From positions 372,001 to 436,000 of the forward strand of contig NZ_SLXU01000001.1 in NCBI RefSeq assembly GCF_004343505.1: a stretch of 64,000 bases of DNA, read 5' to 3'. The stretch is from Rhodovulum bhavnagarense (GTDB taxonomy: Bacteria; Pseudomonadota; Alphaproteobacteria; Rhodobacterales; Rhodobacteraceae). The notes below the pieces were generated by a model. It saw only the letters and a list, made by a program, of their open reading frames with translations. It made no database searches and was not told the origin of the DNA. Positions within the stretch are counted from its first letter, which is position 1. The number at the start of each line of letters is the position of its first letter. This document shows, in pieces, positions 7,772-50,873 of the stretch. Position numbers and translations under genes: made by a program.

Positions 7772-9190
7772 ATGACAGGAATGAAGATCGAGGAAAACCG
7801 AACCTTCGAGGAAATTTCGGTGGGTGACGCGGCCCAGGTTGTCCGGGTCTGCACAGAAGACGATTTCTATATCTTTGCCACTGCCTCGGGCAATCACAAC
7901 CCGATGCACCTGGCCCGTCACGATGGCGACGGGGACGGTGCCGAAGAGGCGATCGCGCCCGCGCTCTGGGTGGGCTCGCTGGTTTCGGCGGCGATCGGCA
8001 ACGTGTTGCCGGGGGCGGGGGCGCTCTACCGGGCGCAAAGTTTCGTATTCCATGAGCGTGCCCATGCGGGCGATGAACTGGTCGCGCGGGTCACGGTAAC
8101 CGAAAAGCACCCGCCCGATGGGTTGGTGATGGCCACCGATGTCACGCGCAAATCCGACGGGGCGGTGATCCTGAGCGGCGAGGCCAGGGTGCAGACACCT
8201 GCCCGCAAGATGGTATTCGAGGATCTTGAAATCCCCGGCCTTCTGATCGAGAGGCATCGCCATTTCGATGCGCTGATTGCGCGGGCCGAACCCTTGCCGC
8301 CGCTGCCTACCGCGGTGATCGCACCCGAAGAACCGAAATCTCTGGGCGGTGCGTTGCTGGGCGCGCGGCATACGATCATCACACCGATCCTGGTCGGGAA
8401 TGCCGCGCTGATTACCGCTGTCGCCGCCGAGATCGGTGAGTCGCTGGACGGAGTCGAGGTGATCGACGCCCCCGATCACGCCCGCGCAGCGAATATCGCG
8501 GTCGATCTTGTCTGCGAGGGTCGCGCACAGGCCGTTATGAAGGGGCATCTGCATACCGACGTGATGCTCAAGGCGGTGCTACGCAAGGAAAACGGTCTGC
8601 GCACGGGGCGTCGCCTGACCCATGTCTTCGTCATGGATGTGCCGGGTGTGCCGCATCCGCTGCTTGTGACCGATGCCGCGATAAACATCGCTCCGGACCT
8701 GCGCACCAAGATGGATATCTGCCAGAACGCCATAGATCTGGCCATTTCTCTTGGGATAGAGTTGCCCAAGGTGGGCGTTCTTTCGGCGGTCGAAACCGTG
8801 AACCCGGATATTCCCAGTTCGCTGGACGCGGCGCTGTTGTCAAAGATGGCCGAACGCGGCCAGATCTTCGGAGGGCTGGTCGACGGGCCGCTGGCGATGG
8901 ACAATGCGGTGGATCTTTCCGCCGCGCGCACCAAGGGCCTCACCGGCCAGGTGGCGGGCCGGGCCGAGGTGCTGGTCGTTCCCAACCTCGATGCGGGCAA
9001 CATGCTGGCAAAGCAGCTTGCCTATATCAGCCATGCCGAGGGGGCTGGCGTGGTGATGGGGGCGAAAGTGCCGATCATCCTGAATTCGCGCTCGGATGAC
9101 GACAAGGCGCGGCTTGCCTCTTGCGCCGTCGCCGCCCTGCACGAGGCCCGGATCTCGGGGCGGATTGCGGCGCCCAGGGCGGCGGAATAG
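7772..9190 (+). CDS. Bifunctional enoyl-CoA hydratase (MaoC) / phosphate acetyltransferase
   Basis: A 472-residue fusion. Residues 1-150 are a MaoC hotdog hydratase with FYIFATASGNHNPMHLARHD, the hydratase-2 type Asp/His motif region. Residues 170-470 are a phosphate acetyl/butyryltransferase, seen in AQAVMKGHLHTDVMLKAVL, HVFVMDVPG and AEVLVVPNLDAGNMLAKQL. It would make acyl-phosphate from acyl-CoA, with the MaoC part acting on short enoyl-CoA or tuning specificity. ackA begins 4 nt after the stop, giving a CoA-ester to acyl-P to ATP route. ATG 7772 is used; ATG 7781 is possible because both sit near GAAAGGA. Confidence 0.92.
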   Translation: MTGMKIEENRTFEEISVGDAAQVVRVCTEDDFYIFATASGNHNPMHLARHDGDGDGAEEAIAPALWVGSLVSAAIGNVLPGAGALYRAQSFVFHERAHAGDELVARVTVTEKHPPDGLVMATDVTRKSDGAVILSGEARVQTPARKMVFEDLEIPGLLIERHRHFDALIARAEPLPPLPTAVIAPEEPKSLGGALLGARHTIITPILVGNAALITAVAAEIGESLDGVEVIDAPDHARAANIAVDLVCEGRAQAVMKGHLHTDVMLKAVLRKENGLRTGRRLTHVFVMDVPGVPHPLLVTDAAINIAPDLRTKMDICQNAIDLAISLGIELPKVGVLSAVETVNPDIPSSLDAALLSKMAERGQIFGGLVDGPLAMDNAVDLSAARTKGLTGQVAGRAEVLVVPNLDAGNMLAKQLAYISHAEGAGVVMGAKVPIILNSRSDDDKARLASCAVAALHEARISGRIAAPRAAE

Positions 9191-9194
9191 ATCC

Positions 9195-10385
9195 ATGCCC
9201 CACGCGCTGACGCTGAATGCCGGATCGTCCTCTCTGAAATTCGCGCTGTTCGAACTGGGCGATTTGTCCGGTGCGCCCGCAGTCCGCATCACCGGCCTGA
9301 TCGAACGGATCGGCGGATCGTCTCACATGCGGGCCCAGCGCGCCGATGGCACGACGATTTCCGACGCGCCCCTGCCGCCCGAAGAGGCCGCCGATCACGA
9401 GACGGCGCTGGGCCGCGCGCTGGACCTGATCGGACAGGAGCGGCCCGATGCACGGGTCGTCGGAGTGGGGCACCGCGTGGTGCATGGTGGCCCCGACCAT
9501 GCCGTGCCGATCGTGCTGAATGCCGAGGCCCTTGAAAAGTTGCGCGCACTAGAACCTCTGGCACCGCTGCATCAGCCGCATAACCTGTCGGGTGTGCGTG
9601 CGGCCCTCGCGGCCTTTCCCGAGGCGGTCCAGGTGGCCTGTTTCGATACCGCCTTTCACCGGCACCACCCCTGGGTGAACGACACGTTCGCCTTGCCGCG
9701 CGGCTATTACGACAAGGGCGTGCGGCGCTACGGTTTCCACGGGCTGAGCTATGACTACATCTCTGGTCGGCTGGCCGAGATCGCGCCGCACCTGCATGCC
9801 GGGCGGGTGGTTGTGGCACATCTCGGCAACGGGGCCTCGATGTGCGGGATGATCGGCGGTCGCTCGATCGCCTCGTCGATGGGCTTTTCGGCGCTGGACG
9901 GGTTGCCGATGGGCACGCGCTCGGGGCAACTGGACCCCGGCGTCGTTCTCTACCTCATGAGCCAGGAGGGCATGGGCGCCGACGAGATCGCCGACCTGCT
10001 GTACAAGCGGTCGGGGCTTTTGGGGTTGTCGGGGCTGTCCAACGACATGCGCAAGCTGGAAGAGGCCGGCACCGACGCCGCGCGCGAGGCGATTGCCTAT
10101 TTCGTGTTCCGTGTCCGCCGCGAACTGGGGGGGCTTGCCGCGGCGCTTGGCGGGATTGATGCGCTGGTCTTCTGCGGCGGTATCGGCGAACATTCCGTGC
10201 ATGTCCGCCAGAAGGTCTGCGAAGGCATGGGCTGGATCGGGCTGGAACTGGACGAGGCGCGTAACATGCGCGGCGAGACCGTCGTCAGCACGGACCTGTC
10301 CCGCATTCGCGTGCTGGTAATTCCCACCGACGAGGAAATCGTCATCGCGCGCGCGGTGCGCGACATGCTGGCCCGGCGCGGCTAG
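9195..10385 (+). CDS. ackA: Acetate kinase
   Basis: Transfers phosphate from acetyl phosphate to ADP; 396 residues, the normal length. The ASKHA fold shows LTLNAGSSSLKFALFE at the start, GHRVVHGG, CFDTAFH, YGFHGLSYDYI, VVAHLGNGASMCG and the MGTRSGQLDPG loop near residue 240. It may accept propionate or butyrate as well. It follows the MaoC-Pta fusion with 4 nt between stop and start, so it is in the same operon. Its stop overlaps that of the convergent P-type ATPase gene by 4 nt, leaving no room for a terminator between them. Confidence 0.96.
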   Translation: MPHALTLNAGSSSLKFALFELGDLSGAPAVRITGLIERIGGSSHMRAQRADGTTISDAPLPPEEAADHETALGRALDLIGQERPDARVVGVGHRVVHGGPDHAVPIVLNAEALEKLRALEPLAPLHQPHNLSGVRAALAAFPEAVQVACFDTAFHRHHPWVNDTFALPRGYYDKGVRRYGFHGLSYDYISGRLAEIAPHLHAGRVVVAHLGNGASMCGMIGGRSIASSMGFSALDGLPMGTRSGQLDPGVVLYLMSQEGMGADEIADLLYKRSGLLGLSGLSNDMRKLEEAGTDAAREAIAYFVFRVRRELGGLAAALGGIDALVFCGGIGEHSVHVRQKVCEGMGWIGLELDEARNMRGETVVSTDLSRIRVLVIPTDEEIVIARAVRDMLARRG

Positions 10386-12976
10386 GGCCTGCGGACCTTG
10401 GAATTGCGTGTTTGAACATGGCGCGCGGCGACGGCCTTGGCCAGTTCCGGTACGACCACCAGGGGAAGCGCGAGAGCTGCGATCAGCCGCCACTCGGCCC
10501 AGCCCAGGGCCTGTGTCTGTAACAGTACCTGTAGCGGCGTCCAATAGATCGCGGCCATCTGCGCAGCCAGTGTTATGGTCAGCGCCACCAAGAGCAACGG
10601 GTTTGAAAACCAGCCGATCCGGGTACAGGGCAGGTGCAGCGAACGAAATGCAAAGACCGAGAGTTTCTCGAACACCACCATCGCGGTAAAGGCGGCGCTG
10701 CGGGCCAGATCCTCGCCCATGGGCAGCAGGGAATAGAAAATCCACAGGCTTGCCGTGCCCGTATAGGCGCCAAAGCCCAGGATGGCCAGAACTCCGCCTT
10801 TGCCCAGGATGGGCTGTGTCTTGGGGCGCGGGGGGCGATCCATTTGGCCGGGGGAAGACTTTTCCAGCCCCAGCGCCACCGCCGTCATCCCATCGGTCAC
10901 GAGGTTCATCCACAGGATCTGCGTCGCCAGAAAGATCAGCGGCCCGCCCAAGATCAGGTTCACGACCAGCGCCACCACCTCGCCCGCGTTCGAGGACAAC
11001 AGGTAGCGGACGAACTTGCGCACGTTTTCATATTGTCGCCGCCCCTCGCGGATCGCATGCAGGATCGTGGCGAAATTGTCATCCAGCAGCACCAGGTCGG
11101 CGGCATCGCGGGCGACATCGGTCCCGCGTGCGCCCATGGCAACACCGATATCTGCCTTTTTAAGGGCGGGGGCGTCATTCACCCCGTCGCCGGTCATGGC
11201 GACGACCTGCCCGGTTTGTTGCAGTGCGGTGACGATGCGCAGTTTCTGCGCGGGCGCGGTGCGCGCGAAAAGCACATCCTCGCGCAGGGCGGCGCGCAGG
11301 GCCGCATCGTCCATCGCCGCCAAGGCGTCGCCGTCGATTACCCGGCTTGGCCTCAGGCCCACCTGCCTGGCAATGGCTCGTGCGGTCAGGGCGGCGTCTC
11401 CGGTAATCAGGATCACGCGAATGCCGGCGGATTTCGCTGCGCGGATCGCCGGACCCACCTCTGCGCGCGGCGGGTCGATCAGTCCGACGAACCCCAGAAA
11501 GGTAAGGCCTGCCTCGTCCTCTGGCAGGCGCATGTCCTGTTGTCGCCTGCGGGCCAGCGCGATGACCCTCAGACCGTTCGAGGCCATCCGTTCATACTCG
11601 GCTTGAAGTCCAGCCCGCACGGCCCCTTCCAGAGGCTCTGGCCCCGACACGCCCATGACATGGGTGCAGCGCGCCAGCACCGGCTCGGGCGCACCCTTGG
11701 TATGCAGCACGTACCCCTCCGGGCCAAGAGCAAGAACGCTCATCCGCTTGCGCTCGGATGAAAACGGCAATTCGGCAAGCGCCGCGTTGCGACCGGGCAG
11801 CGGCGCCCAGCCCTTGTAGGCCAGTGTCACCAAGGCCCCCTCGGTTGGCTCGCCCAGCATCTGCCAATCATCGCCCGCCCGGCGCAGCCGTGCATGGTTG
11901 CAAACCAGCGCTGTTTCCAAAAGCGCGCCAAGCGCCGTGTCGCAATCAGCCCGCACCCGGCGACCTGCCCGCGCGATATGGCCGGTCGGGTCGTAGCCGG
12001 TGCCGGTCACGTCATAACGGCCCGCCGCCATGACCACCTGCACGGCTGTCATCCTGTCCTCGGTCAGCGTGCCCGTCTTGTCGGTGCAGATAACAGATGC
12101 CGCGCCCAGCGTTTCCACCGCCTGCAACCTGCGGGCCAGCGCCTTTTGGCGCACCATCGCTTGTGCCCCCAGCGCAAGCGTGATGGTGACCACCACCGGC
12201 AGGCCCTCGGGCACGATGGCAACCGCCAGGGACAGCGCGGTCATGAACATCTCTGTCAAGGGCTTGCCGACGCTCACCCCCAACATGCCGATCAGCGCCG
12301 CAACGCAAAGCGCGGCCAGGCCCATCTGCCGGGCCAGCCGGCCAAGTTGTCGTTGCAGGGGGGTGCGCTTGGGGCCGACCGATCCGGTCAGTATCGCGAT
12401 CTTGCCGAACCGGCTACGCGTGCCGGTGGCGGTAACCATGCCTTCGGCCCGGCCCGCCACCACTATGGTGCCCATGAACAGGGGATCGCCCGCTTCCTTG
12501 GTAACGGGTACGGATTCCCCGGTCAGGGCGCTTTCATCGGCTTTTATCTGCACCGCGAGCAACAGGTCCATATCGGCCGGAACCCGGTCGCCAGTCTCGA
12601 CGATCACCACGTCGCCGGGCACGATCTCTTGGGCGGGCAATTGCCGTTCCTCACCGTCGCGACGCACCCGTGCGACCGAGGCGACCATGCGGCCAAGCGC
12701 GGCAAGGGCGGTTTCGGCCCGCCATTCCTGCACAAAGCCCAACACGCCGTTCAAGATCACCACGACCATGATCGCCAGTGCGTCGGTCCGTTCGCCCAAT
12801 GCCAGCGCAATCGCGGCGGCGACGATCAGGATCACCACGAGAAGCCCGGCGAACTGGCGCAAGAATATCACGGCGGGCGAAACGCGCGGCCCCTCGGCGA
12901 GGCGGTTCGCCCCGACCCGCGCCAGCCGGATGCAGGCCTCGGCCTGTGTCAGTCCTAGGGATCGGTCGGGCGTCAT
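10382..12976 (-). CDS. Type II (SERCA/PMA-like) cation-transporting P-type ATPase
   Basis: An 864-residue membrane ATPase with an N-terminal cation-ATPase domain (SLGLTQAEACIRL), the actuator loop DESALTGESVPVTK at 147-160, the ion-site PEGLPVVVTITLALG at 256-270, phosphorylation Asp299 in CTDKTGTLTEDR, the hinge TGDGVNDAPALKKADIGVAMG and a C-terminal membrane bundle. PEGLP plus overall length place it with Ca2+/Mn2+ pumps of the SERCA/PMR1 branch, although the ion cannot be proven. It is transcribed divergently from ppsA. A minus-strand TAGAGT at 13007-13002 lies where a -10 would be for activation from the FNR-type box at 13029. Confidence 0.9.
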   Translation of the reverse strand: MTPDRSLGLTQAEACIRLARVGANRLAEGPRVSPAVIFLRQFAGLLVVILIVAAAIALALGERTDALAIMVVVILNGVLGFVQEWRAETALAALGRMVASVARVRRDGEERQLPAQEIVPGDVVIVETGDRVPADMDLLLAVQIKADESALTGESVPVTKEAGDPLFMGTIVVAGRAEGMVTATGTRSRFGKIAILTGSVGPKRTPLQRQLGRLARQMGLAALCVAALIGMLGVSVGKPLTEMFMTALSLAVAIVPEGLPVVVTITLALGAQAMVRQKALARRLQAVETLGAASVICTDKTGTLTEDRMTAVQVVMAAGRYDVTGTGYDPTGHIARAGRRVRADCDTALGALLETALVCNHARLRRAGDDWQMLGEPTEGALVTLAYKGWAPLPGRNAALAELPFSSERKRMSVLALGPEGYVLHTKGAPEPVLARCTHVMGVSGPEPLEGAVRAGLQAEYERMASNGLRVIALARRRQQDMRLPEDEAGLTFLGFVGLIDPPRAEVGPAIRAAKSAGIRVILITGDAALTARAIARQVGLRPSRVIDGDALAAMDDAALRAALREDVLFARTAPAQKLRIVTALQQTGQVVAMTGDGVNDAPALKKADIGVAMGARGTDVARDAADLVLLDDNFATILHAIREGRRQYENVRKFVRYLLSSNAGEVVALVVNLILGGPLIFLATQILWMNLVTDGMTAVALGLEKSSPGQMDRPPRPKTQPILGKGGVLAILGFGAYTGTASLWIFYSLLPMGEDLARSAAFTAMVVFEKLSVFAFRSLHLPCTRIGWFSNPLLLVALTITLAAQMAAIYWTPLQVLLQTQALGWAEWRLIAALALPLVVVPELAKAVAARHVQTRNSKVRRP

Positions 12977-13028
12977 GTGCCGCTCGGGTTGGAATGGTGC
13001 AACTCTACATGGGCCAGATTTGTTTGCC

Positions 13029-13042
13029 TTGATGCGGATCAA
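13029..13042. promoter_or_regulatory. Perfect FNR-type box between P-type ATPase and ppsA
   Basis: TTGATGCGGATCAA is an exact match to the FNR/FnrL/Dnr consensus TTGAT-N4-ATCAA. It is centred at 13035.5 in the 131-base divergent intergenic region. About 41 bases away on each side lie weak -10-like hexamers: TAGTCT near 13066 toward ppsA and TAGAGT at 13007-13002 toward the ATPase. That spacing would allow class II activation of both genes under low oxygen. The match is seen directly; the regulator and effect are inferred. Confidence 0.75.
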
Positions 13043-13107
13043 CGCAAGGTTTCGTTCTGCATGCCTAGTCTCTGGCAAGGCCGTTCCAATCTGCGGGAGG
13101 ATGTCAG

Positions 13108-15474
13108 ATGGGTGCCCATATCCGGTGGTTCGAGTCCCTACGGCGTGGTGACGTCGCAACGGTCGGGGGCAAGAATGCCTCGCTGGGCGAAATGGTGGCC
13201 GCACTGGCCGGGCAAGGCATCAAGGTGCCCGCCGGCTTTGCCACCACGGCTGATGCTTATCGCGCGTTTCTTGCGCATAACGACCTGGAGGCCCGGATCA
13301 CGGCGTCGCTGGCGGCACTCGACGCTCACCGGACCGAGTTGCACGAGGCGGGCACGACGATCCGCCGGATGATCCGCGAGGGCCACTGGCCCGACAACAT
13401 CCGCGCCGAGATCCGTGACGCCTATGCCGAACTGTCGCGCCGGTCGGGCGTTGACGCGGTGCCGGTCGCCGTGCGCAGTTCCGCAACCGCCGAGGACCTA
13501 CCCGATGCCAGTTTCGCCGGCCAGCAGGAAACCTATCTCAACGTGCGTGGCCCCGACGACCTGCTGGCGGCCTGCCGGCGCTGTTTCGCGTCGCTGTTCA
13601 CCGACCGGGCGATCACCTATCGCCGGATCAAGGGGTTCGATCACGACAAGGTCGCGCTGTCGATCGGGGTGCAGCGGATGGTGCGCTCGGATATCGGCGG
13701 CTCGGGCGTTATGTTCTCTCTCGATACCGAGACGGGCTATCCCGATCTCGTGCTGATCAACGCCGCCTGGGGGCTGGGCGAGAACGTCGTTCAGGGCGCT
13801 GTCACCCCCGACGAATACCAGGTCTACAAGCCCTTCCTCGACCGGCCAGGCCTGGTGCCGATCCTGGAAAAGGGGCTGGGTGCCAAGGAAAAGAAGATGA
13901 TCTACGGCCGCGACGGGCAATCGACCCGGAACGTGCCAACATCCAGGGCGGAGCGCGGGCAGTTCGTGCTGTCGGACGCCGAGATCCTCGACCTCGCCCG
14001 CATGGCCGTCACGATCGAACGCCATTACGGCATGCCGATGGACATGGAATGGGCCCGCGACGGCGAGACGGGCGAGCTTTTCATCGTGCAGGCCCGCCCC
14101 GAGACCGTACAGTCGCGCGCGGATGCCGCGGGCTTCCGCAGCTATACAGTCCACGACAAGGGCAGGACGCTTCTGACCGGCCTTTCCGTCGGCGCGGGCC
14201 TTGCCAGCGGCCATGTCTGCGTGATCGAAAGCGCCAAGGACATCGACCGCTTTGTCGATGGCGCGATCCTCGTCACCTCGATCACCGACCCCGACTGGGT
14301 GCCGATCATGAAGCGCGCCGCCGCGATCGTCACCGATCATGGCGGGCGCACCAGCCATGCCGCCATCGTCAGCCGCGAACTGGGCCTGCCCGCCATCGTC
14401 GGCACGGGCGACGCCACCCACATCCTGCATGACCAGCAGGAGGTGACGGTATCCTGCGCCGAGGGCGAGACCGGCTATGTATACGAGGGGATGGCGGAAT
14501 ATTCCGTCGAGGATATCGCGCTGTCGGACGTGCGCGAGACAAAGACGCGGGTGATGCTGAACATGGCGAACCCATCGGCCGCGATCCGCTGGTGGCGGCT
14601 GCCCTCGGCGGGCGTGGGCCTGGCCCGGATGGAATTCGTCATCAACAATGCGATCAAGGCGCACCCGATGGCGTTGATCCACCCTGAGCGACTGGATGAG
14701 CCGACGCGTGAGGAAATCGAAAGACTCACATCAGGTTTCCAAGATAAAATACAGTTTTTCTTGGAAAAACTTTCGATGGGGTTGTCGCGCATCGCGGCCC
14801 CCGTCTATCCCGAGCCGGTCATCGTGCGGATGAGTGATTTCAAGACAAACGAATACGCCGAGCTGCTGGGCGGGCGGGGTTTCGAGCCCAGGGAAGAGAA
14901 CCCGATGATCGGCTTTCGCGGCGCATCTCGTTACTATTCAGATGCTTATGCACCGGGCTTCGCGCTGGAATGCCAGGCGATCCGACGGCTGCGCGATGAG
15001 ATGGGCTTCGACAACGTGATCGTCATGATCCCGTTCTGTCGAACCCCCGAAGAGGCCGACCGCGTGCTTGAAGTCATGGCTGCAAACGGTTTGAAACGCG
15101 GTGAAAATGGCTTGAAGGTCTACGTGATGTGCGAGGTGCCGTCGAATGTGATCCTCGCCGAGGAATTCGCGCGCCGCTTCGACGGGTTCTCGATCGGGTC
15201 TAACGACCTGACGCAGCTGACGCTGGGGGTGGACCGGGATTCCGAGGCGTTGGCCACGCTGTTCGACGAACGCAACGCCGCCGTTCAGTGGATGATCCGG
15301 TCCGTGATCGAACGTGCCCACGCGGTCGGGTGCAAGGTCGGCTTTTGCGGACAGGCGCCTTCGAACGATCCCGGTTTCGCGCGCCTGCTGGTCGGCTACG
15401 GCATCGACACGATCTCGGTCACGCCCGACAGCTTTCTCGCCGTCAAGCGCAACGTCGCGGAGGCCGAGCGCTGA
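13108..15474 (+). CDS. ppsA: Phosphoenolpyruvate synthase
   Basis: Converts pyruvate, ATP and water to PEP, AMP and phosphate. The 788 residues match the family. The N-terminal ATP-binding domain starts GGKNASLGEMVAAL and contains RSSATAEDLPDASFAGQQET. The phosphohistidine domain has GGRTSHAAIVSRELGLPAIV with catalytic His417. The C-terminal PEP/pyruvate barrel has GSNDLTQLTLGVDRDS and VGFCGQAPSNDP, with the conserved Cys. The ATG is preceded by GGGAGGA. It diverges from the P-type ATPase, with an FNR-type box between them, which suggests use when oxygen is low and pyruvate or acetyl-CoA overflow matters. Confidence 0.97.
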   Translation: MGAHIRWFESLRRGDVATVGGKNASLGEMVAALAGQGIKVPAGFATTADAYRAFLAHNDLEARITASLAALDAHRTELHEAGTTIRRMIREGHWPDNIRAEIRDAYAELSRRSGVDAVPVAVRSSATAEDLPDASFAGQQETYLNVRGPDDLLAACRRCFASLFTDRAITYRRIKGFDHDKVALSIGVQRMVRSDIGGSGVMFSLDTETGYPDLVLINAAWGLGENVVQGAVTPDEYQVYKPFLDRPGLVPILEKGLGAKEKKMIYGRDGQSTRNVPTSRAERGQFVLSDAEILDLARMAVTIERHYGMPMDMEWARDGETGELFIVQARPETVQSRADAAGFRSYTVHDKGRTLLTGLSVGAGLASGHVCVIESAKDIDRFVDGAILVTSITDPDWVPIMKRAAAIVTDHGGRTSHAAIVSRELGLPAIVGTGDATHILHDQQEVTVSCAEGETGYVYEGMAEYSVEDIALSDVRETKTRVMLNMANPSAAIRWWRLPSAGVGLARMEFVINNAIKAHPMALIHPERLDEPTREEIERLTSGFQDKIQFFLEKLSMGLSRIAAPVYPEPVIVRMSDFKTNEYAELLGGRGFEPREENPMIGFRGASRYYSDAYAPGFALECQAIRRLRDEMGFDNVIVMIPFCRTPEEADRVLEVMAANGLKRGENGLKVYVMCEVPSNVILAEEFARRFDGFSIGSNDLTQLTLGVDRDSEALATLFDERNAAVQWMIRSVIERAHAVGCKVGFCGQAPSNDPGFARLLVGYGIDTISVTPDSFLAVKRNVAEAER

Positions 15475-33415: not shown

Positions 33416-33429
33416 TTGACCGGGATCAA
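33416..33429. promoter_or_regulatory. FNR-type box upstream of small lipoprotein gene
   Basis: TTGACCGGGATCAA fits TTGA(T/C)-N4-ATCAA. It is centred at 33422.5. A -10-like TATAGT at 33451-33456, inside a 6-6-6 inverted repeat CTGAAC/GTTCAG (33442-33459), would place a start near 33462, so the box sits close to -40, the class II position. The binding protein is inferred. Confidence 0.6.
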
Positions 33430-50526: not shown

Positions 50527-50873
50527 GAAACATCCTTGCTGGCGAGATGAAGGCGGGCGTCGCGTTCGCCGCGCCGTGGCGCGGTTATTGTCGCCGAGGG
50601 TTCGAACGGTTGCGCGGCCTTCGACGGCATGCCGCATCTTTTGTCCCGGCCGCGGCGGTGGTGGCTGTGTTGCAGCGTCTGCCCGTGCCGACCGGGATTG
50701 TTGGCGAAAAGGGATCTGTTGGTGATGACATGACGTTCGCGCCCTGTGACCTCGCGTACATATGCGAAAAACAATATACGTTGCAATAGCAACAAGTGCG
50801 CCGCTTGACGTGGGTCAAGGCAGGCGGGGCGCACCCGGTGCAAGTCTTTTCCAAAGTCGGACGGAGTATGGAA
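50527..50873. promoter_or_regulatory. Divergent regulatory region between blh and traR/dksA-like gene
   Basis: No credible gene in 347 bases. The part next to the TraR/DksA gene contains two 14-base dyads with centres exactly 25 bases apart: GTTGCAATAGCAAC (50780-50793) and TTGACGTGGGTCAA (50805-50818). The second fits the FNR/Dnr consensus. The DNA between 50755 and 50795 is AT-rich (ACATATGCG, AACAATATACG), as expected for a promoter or activator-binding region. Confidence 0.6.
50805..50818. promoter_or_regulatory. FNR-type box upstream of traR/dksA-like gene
   Basis: TTGACGTGGGTCAA is a perfect 5-4-5 dyad of the FNR/Dnr type (TTGA(T/C)-N4-(A/G)TCAA). It ends 55 bases before the chosen start of the zinc-finger gene and could act on it, or on blh in the other direction. 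No clear -10 at the class II distance is visible, which lowers confidence in the target. Confidence 0.55.

Follow-up and report, generated by a model that had tools for sequence, protein, structure and literature searches.

A candidate FnrL operator between ppsA and a divergent P-type ATPase gene in Rhodovulum bhavnagarense

An exact FNR box in an intergenic region of 131 bp separates two divergent genes in the genome of Rhodovulum bhavnagarense, one encoding phosphoenolpyruvate (PEP) synthase (ppsA) and the other a cation-transporting P-type ATPase (Table 1). We put at roughly 70% the probability that this box is the operator from which FnrL starts ppsA and, in this species, also the ATPase gene at low oxygen. 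The initial annotation of the 64,000-nucleotide stretch of DNA analysed here (hereafter, the window) described an exact FNR consensus flanked by the ATPase gene and ppsA, with maoC-pta and ackA next to them, and all these assignments were borne out. The sequence is present in a single copy in the window, where it is also the sole exact match to the palindrome. It is one of five exact sites in the 3,152,696 bases of the genome, compared to 0.34 expected from the base composition of the window and none for a reversed control pattern. Four sites in the window have at most one mismatch to TTGATNNNNATCAA, against 1.05 in shuffled sequences, and only the box between ppsA and the ATPase gene is exact; the near-matches are located at 33416, 19243 and 25917, the first of these (L130) lying past a gene end with no gene to drive. 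On the whole, the comparisons described below show that the site is real and conserved, and suggest that its reading as a low-oxygen control element is right for ppsA and probably right for the ATPase gene, but overstated for the acetate node.

Table 1 Features of the locus and examples of the small protein family found opposite ppsA elsewhere
Feature	Position	Strand	Details
maoC-pta, fused MaoC-like and phosphate acetyl/butyryltransferase	7781..9190	+	NF006045 613.8 bits, cut-off 282; PF01575, PF01515
ackA, acetate/propionate kinase	9195..10385	+	TIGR00016 362.6 bits, cut-off 293.4
P2A-like cation-transporting P-type ATPase, 864 aa	10382..12976	-	across the box from ppsA
-10-like hexamer TAGAGT of the ATPase gene	13007-13002	-	21 bases beyond the box; predicted start ~12994
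Exact FNR/FnrL box TTGATGCGGATCAA	13029..13042	.	palindrome TTGAT-N4-ATCAA
-10-like hexamer TAGTCT of ppsA	13066..13071	+	starts 23 bases past the box edge; predicted start site ~13077
ppsA, phosphoenolpyruvate synthase (pyruvate, water dikinase), 788 aa	13108..15474	+	GGGAGG ahead of ATG
~120-aa family, examples	L023:5492-5848	-	also L016, L022, L042, L011, L015, L024, L025, L035, L065, L067, L070 and others

The rightward gene encodes a true PEP synthase and carries the FNR box in its own promoter: the protein scores 1111.7 bits against TIGR01418 (cut-off 739.75) and 1127.4 bits against NF005057 (cut-off 598), and contains the PPDK_N, PEP-utilizers and PEP-utilizers_C domains. We took the 80 most similar named ppsA loci, one of which has too little upstream DNA, and found, between -125 and -40 relative to the start of ppsA, a box with at most two mismatches in 70 of the remaining 79 (49 with at most one mismatch, 9 exact); 9 loci show no recognisable box. 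Dinucleotide shuffles of the same upstream regions yielded 1.9 such boxes on average (maximum 6), and control windows farther upstream contained boxes in 0 of 77 and 3 of 77 cases. Because the 79 loci are mutually related and were chosen by similarity, sampling was extended genus by genus; these wider samples share some loci with the set of 80 and are, therefore, not independent of it. Among 295 genomes of the family, one per genus, 59 have a ppsA match at E 1e-150 or better; with this genome and a partial match (G196:C104) left out, 59 upstream regions from 58 genomes (G268 contributed two) were scored, and a box at -150 to -25 was detected in 52 (shuffle mean 2.45, maximum 7). In the class sample, ppsA was found in 32 of 385 genomes, with 33 matches; after removal of this genome, G309 (counted with the family) and G432 (at a contig end), 8 of the 30 loci outside the family have the box (shuffle mean 0.85, maximum 4) and 22 lack it. 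Thus, the link between the box and ppsA appears to be near universal among the sampled ppsA genes of the family and patchy outside it.

Within the genus, represented by 16 Rhodovulum genomes, a ppsA match is present in 11, and the box accompanies ppsA in all 11, the window included. In one of these genomes (L123, G010), ppsA is seemingly split over two frames near residue 200, apparently through a frameshift or sequencing error, and its box has one mismatch. It is very likely, given this pattern of conservation, that the FNR/FnrL-type site in the window controls ppsA. The genome also encodes a pyruvate phosphate dikinase (PPDK)-like protein (G000:C8:74027-76327, L292), which at 825.9 bits narrowly misses the TIGR01828 cut-off; PEP may be made from pyruvate in two ways here. 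No near FNR box was found at this gene in the first 1.7 kb of the locus, where the best match, with two mismatches, lies about 800 bases before the frame; PpsA may, therefore, be the low-oxygen enzyme of the pair.

In class II activation, the centre of the activator box is at -41.5 from the start site, and the ideal offset of the -10 hexamer from the box is 22 bases. The offsets of the two hexamers in the window, 23 on the ppsA side and 21 on the ATPase side, flank this value, and the hexamers agree with TATAAT in three (TAGTCT) and four (TAGAGT) of six bases. The distance of about 41 bases to the -10 elements given in the initial annotation holds for the predicted start sites but not for the -10 elements themselves, which are centred 31 and 33 bases away from the middle of the box. 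No sigma-70 promoter with both -35 and -10 elements was detected at 12900-13200, as would be expected of an activator-dependent promoter. On the ppsA side, scanning of offsets 20-24 revealed a TANNNT hexamer in all 11 genus loci, at 21-23. Across 71 box-bearing ppsA loci (a set that counts the start of the box and hence exceeds the 70 above by one), TANNNT occurs 21 or 22 bases past the box in 28 loci, with 0-2 loci at each of the other offsets; the chance of any TANNNT within five consecutive offsets is 1.2%. The two offsets in the window and the peak over the 71 loci both fit the class II position.

On the ATPase side, TANNNT at offsets 20-24 is present in all three genus loci that carry the ATPase gene and in none of the eight that do not (Fisher 0.006, from three loci only); the two relatives have TATTGT at 23 (G006) and TAGACT at 21 (G008). 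The same tendency is seen in the 71 box-bearing loci, where a far-side TANNNT is found in 8 of the 26 loci with a divergent gene, in 0 of the 28 with a codirectional one (Fisher 0.0015) and in 1 of the 17 others. An opposing trend affects the ppsA side, where the hexamer is found in only 7 of 26 divergent loci versus 18 of 28 codirectional ones and 4 of 17 others.

The ATPase contains the E1-E2_ATPase, Cation_ATPase_N and Cation_ATPase_C domains and, among solved sequences, most closely matches SPCA1 and the Ca2+-ATPase lmo0841 of Listeria; its score against TIGR01522 (calcium-transporting P2A ATPases of the PMR1 type) is 649.4 bits, under the cut-off of 798.3. Comparison with SPCA1 shows that the glutamate of PEGLP in M4 and the asparagine and aspartate of the M6 motif, which we take to be the Ca2+-site residues, are present. 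The protein is possibly a Ca2+ pump, and is at most PMR1-like in function. Orthologues with 77-100% identity were identified in 3 of the 16 genus genomes (the window, G006 and G008), always facing ppsA, with all other matches at 37-46%; the 8 remaining genus ppsA loci contain no ATPase match in the stretch taken, which in G011 begins only 445 bases upstream. In G008, two genes that look CoA-transferase-like by eye are located between ackA and the ATPase gene.

In the family sample, an ATPase orthologue was found at E 1e-200 or better in 36 of the 295 genomes, this genome and 35 others; 29 of the 35 loci were taken, and 28 have enough upstream DNA. An FNR box of their own precedes 16 of these 28 orthologues outside the genus (shuffle mean 1.0, maximum 4), 12 having no recognisable box, and none of 13 ATPase paralogues within the genus (35-44% identity). 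The boxes at the orthologues suggest that this ATPase family is itself a low-oxygen target and make a shared two-way promoter credible. Moreover, the ATPase and PpsA co-occur: PpsA is present in 19 of the 35 ATPase-bearing genomes, compared to 7 expected, among 294 genomes, 58 of which have PpsA (Fisher 1e-6, uncorrected for kinship). The two genes lie within about 11 kb of each other in 5 of the 19 genomes, and in G309, one of the five, they are head to head but separated by a phasin gene. With genes called by a codon-based caller, the ATPase orthologue was found to face a phasin gene in 6 of the 29 loci (Phasin_2 was detected in all 3 proteins scanned); its neighbours also include genes for an M50 protease (7 loci), VIT1 (4), PhaC (4) and a PAS-kinase (9). 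Among the 80 named ppsA loci, more distant P-type ATPases recur near ppsA as well: in both L016 and L041, one related at 40-42% is encoded upstream, on the opposite strand and past a small gene facing ppsA; a 41% related one lies upstream in L038, on the strand of ppsA, and a 56% related one just downstream in L074. The direct head-to-head pair is found only in the three Rhodovulum loci.

These observations bear on the possibility that the box serves ppsA only, the ATPase gene having been rearranged upstream of it and relying on another weak promoter, with a -10 hexamer that arose by chance. Such an arrangement would agree with the retention of the box in the absence of the ATPase gene, seen in 8 of the 11 genus loci, and with the lack of grouping, at mixed support, of the three ATPase-bearing loci in the PpsA tree, which implies a fluid neighbourhood; but it would leave to coincidence both the properly placed hexamer in all three ATPase-bearing loci, at 21-23, and in none of the other eight, and the FNR boxes that orthologous ATPases own elsewhere. 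We consider it rather unlikely. The suggestion of the initial annotation that one site could drive both genes is thus credible, being well supported for ppsA, and the box probably drives the divergent ATPase gene, too.

With regard to the history of the locus, the ATPase gene is unlikely to have been the original owner of the box, which is kept at ppsA in the eight genus loci lacking the ATPase orthologue, followed by CGC in all eight and preceded by CC in seven. A single clean insertion was also rejected: the window, G006 and G008 do not group together in the PpsA tree, and the PpsA and Pta trees disagree, so that gain, loss and transfer are indistinguishable. Elsewhere, the position opposite ppsA is often occupied by an apparently undescribed family of proteins of about 120 amino acids with the motif LPGWTI...GHWxCSLR...RDxDE.IG, the genes for which start beyond the FNR box and point away from ppsA. 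By length and appearance, this family accounts for 19 of the 26 divergent ppsA loci (12 of the 19 proteins were aligned), and relatives are present in two ATPase islands (L170 and L173). Five of these proteins had no Pfam match at E values up to 1, a PHROG search with three produced one weak match (E 0.047), and a search of the 16 genus genomes, run without a positive control, returned zero matches.

The second gene over the CRP-type helix threshold must be considered next to FnrL as a candidate regulator. FnrL is encoded in the genome (NF045989, 467.8 bits, cut-off 300) and combines an N-terminal Cys cluster with an ETVSR helix that conforms to the E-x-x-S-R pattern of the recognition helix, features that we read as the FNR-type signature. 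Genome-wide, the looser pattern TTGAYNNNNRTCAA has 23 sites, compared to 2 for the reversed control, and the flanks of 17 of these were inspected (15 with loci L001-L005 and L126-L135, and two in L194). Boxes adjoin hemN/fnrL, ccoN, bchE and tldD, all named by scores over the NCBIfam cut-offs, whereas cydA-like (cut by the locus end), DksA-like and MauG-like genes next to TTGAYNNNNRTCAA sites score under the cut-offs; a Usp-like gene opposite ccoN, with zero NCBIfam matches, was assigned by eye.

Several of these sites point to further members of the regulon. Within the window, TTGACGTGGGTCAA at 50805-50818 (G000:C1:422805-422818, L131) lies 49 bases upstream of a gene for a 107-aa DksA-like protein, with an NF033459 score under the cut-off, and is likely to be another FnrL site. 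Two of the five exact sites in the genome (L005:1501-1514 and L001:1501-1514) precede small genes, in the former case for a 90-aa Cys-containing protein followed by a similar 86-aa ORF, and in the latter for an 81-aa protein; these look like additional FnrL targets.

Only two proteins of the genome exceed the cut-off for PF13545, the CRP-type helix domain. One is FnrL; the other (G000:C1:549777-549968, L286) has an EVVSR helix and no N-terminal Cys cluster, and could recognise FnrL sites, too. FNR, FixK and DNR are known to recognise very similar sites (section 9 of PMC2908626), which would allow another member of the family to use the box between ppsA and the ATPase gene instead of FnrL, or to share it. 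Nevertheless, with FnrL present, boxes of this type at its classic targets hemN/fnrL, ccoN, bchE and tldD, and a single alternative candidate over the cut-off, the involvement of a different regulator seems improbable.

The sign of the regulation can be addressed through the same geometry. FNR-type proteins also act as repressors, and FnrL bound at the box could, conceivably, block one or both promoters at low oxygen. However, with the hexamer peak at 21-22, the box sits where a class II activator would bind rather than over the -10 element or the start, the region from 12900 to 13200 contains no consensus promoter with both -35 and -10 elements, and the Bradyrhizobium counterpart is activated (PMC9104804, available in part). 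Repression is, accordingly, a reading to which we give very little weight. Finally, although 3 of the 17 inspected TTGAYNNNNRTCAA sites are intragenic and 2 more, at gene ends, have nothing downstream to drive, a functionless chance palindrome is ruled out by the conservation of the box at ppsA (70/79 and 52/59 loci versus about 2 in shuffles).

The acetate genes, which the initial annotation included in the FNR-controlled unit, do not seem to belong there. The 300 bases preceding maoC-pta and those preceding ackA contain no FNR-like site with up to two mismatches in any of the 8 genus loci that have both genes, the one in the window among them, and in the window ackA and the ATPase gene run towards each other. 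In the 5 genus loci that lack the ATPase but possess maoC-pta and ackA, both genes are located upstream of the box on the strand of ppsA, so the box cannot drive them. Position and missing upstream sites led us to reject control of the acetate genes by the same box. The convergent ackA and ATPase genes overlap tail to tail by 4 bases (10382-10385), and because of this overlap a low-oxygen ATPase transcript may extend antisense into ackA.

The preferred reading, that is, an FnrL operator serving both genes, implies the following chain of events. The box would be the operator of FnrL, an oxygen-labile Fe-S activator. When oxygen drops, an FnrL dimer would occupy the box and recruit RNA polymerase in the class II position. 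Rightward, this would switch on ppsA, the product of which would supply PEP from pyruvate for gluconeogenesis and anaplerosis during growth on organic acids at low oxygen. Leftward, the gene for the P2A-type ATPase, transporting a cation that is possibly Ca2+, would be switched on here and in two other members of the genus. We infer that the ppsA half is the older one and that the ATPase gene settled in the interval from the ackA side to the box, the other face of which it now uses.

More generally, we see about even odds that the FNR box at ppsA acts as a two-way control site with exchangeable partners, at which FnrL directly ties the supply of PEP from pyruvate to low oxygen across the Rhodobacteraceae and the far-side genes have repeatedly changed: the Ca-type ATPase in some Rhodovulum, the ~120-aa family in other genera, followed in two loci by another P-type ATPase. 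Oxygen sensing by FnrL would then govern PEP synthase, and hence which way carbon flows at the PEP-pyruvate node, in those members of a large marine and phototrophic family that possess ppsA. The locus also provides a natural experiment on the adoption of the second side of an activator site by a neighbour gene, as the ATPase gene is present in some close relatives and absent from others, such as G002, with 91% PpsA identity. The link between FnrL and PEP supply, if true, is not reported for two model Rhodobacter species in the literature examined, and a search of the literature outside most subscription journals found nothing that connects FnrL to ppsA or PEP synthase, or to a P-type ATPase together with PEP synthase.

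The layout of the site, if not the identity of its targets, has precedents in the FnrL regulon. A single box between divergent genes is also the layout at hemN/fnrL and ccoN in this Rhodovulum genome. The core FnrL regulon of Rhodobacter sphaeroides was predicted and tested (PMC2908626, Table 1), and the genes with boxes here, hemN/fnrL, ccoN, bchE and tldD, are, by their names, members of that table. In contrast, the table lists neither ppsA nor a P2A-type ATPase, the sole P-type ATPase being the heavy-metal one, RSP0690; targets were retained there if conserved in at least 20% of the regulator-bearing species (PMC2908626). As ppsA was found in only 59 of the 295 family genomes in our sample, about one-fifth, the model Rhodobacter species may lack it.

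The low-oxygen-activated (lxa) locus of Burkholderia cenocepacia is reportedly a low-oxygen group with acetate, ATPase and stress genes; an island of this type would be marked by linked Usp, Hsp20, PHB and phosphoketolase genes. No such island was apparent at the window, whereas elsewhere in the family the neighbours of the ATPase gene include, in some genomes, those for phasin, M50 protease, VIT1, PhaC and a PAS-kinase. Among P-type ATPases, PA1429 of Pseudomonas aeruginosa, described as a cation-transporting enzyme, has a comparable link to low oxygen; we know of no box that it shares with ppsA. In the parts of the articles available, PA1429 is included in a table headed as a selection from the Anr regulon (PMC8087004) and in another devoted to anoxia-responsive genes (PMC8575079).

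The closest parallel to the ppsA half comes from Bradyrhizobium diazoefficiens and involves FixK2. This regulator acts under FixLJ and has no Fe-S sensor of its own. The ppsA gene of this bacterium, blr4655, is a direct FixK2 target for which validation by in vitro transcription is stated, activated by FixK2 from the box TTGACCTGCCTCAA at -47 (PMC9104804), and PEP synthase is among the top microoxia-induced proteins, with a log2 value of 4.3 (PMC6515984), according to the available parts of these articles. In our class sample, one locus (L279) has TTGACCTGCCTCAA at -47 of ppsA, the sequence and position printed for blr4655. The two systems share the ppsA gene, a promoter box and a regulator of the same superfamily; they differ in that the regulator is FixK2 there and likely FnrL here, that the box is exact here, and that the available part of the Bradyrhizobium report mentions no divergent ATPase (PMC9104804). 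The view that such genes are tied to oxygen limitation in other proteobacteria, also put forward in the initial annotation, is therefore upheld by ppsA under FixK2 (PMC9104804) and by PA1429 under Anr (PMC8087004), and with these two cases published, as far as the available parts of the articles go, the Rhodovulum locus would be an instance of known control.
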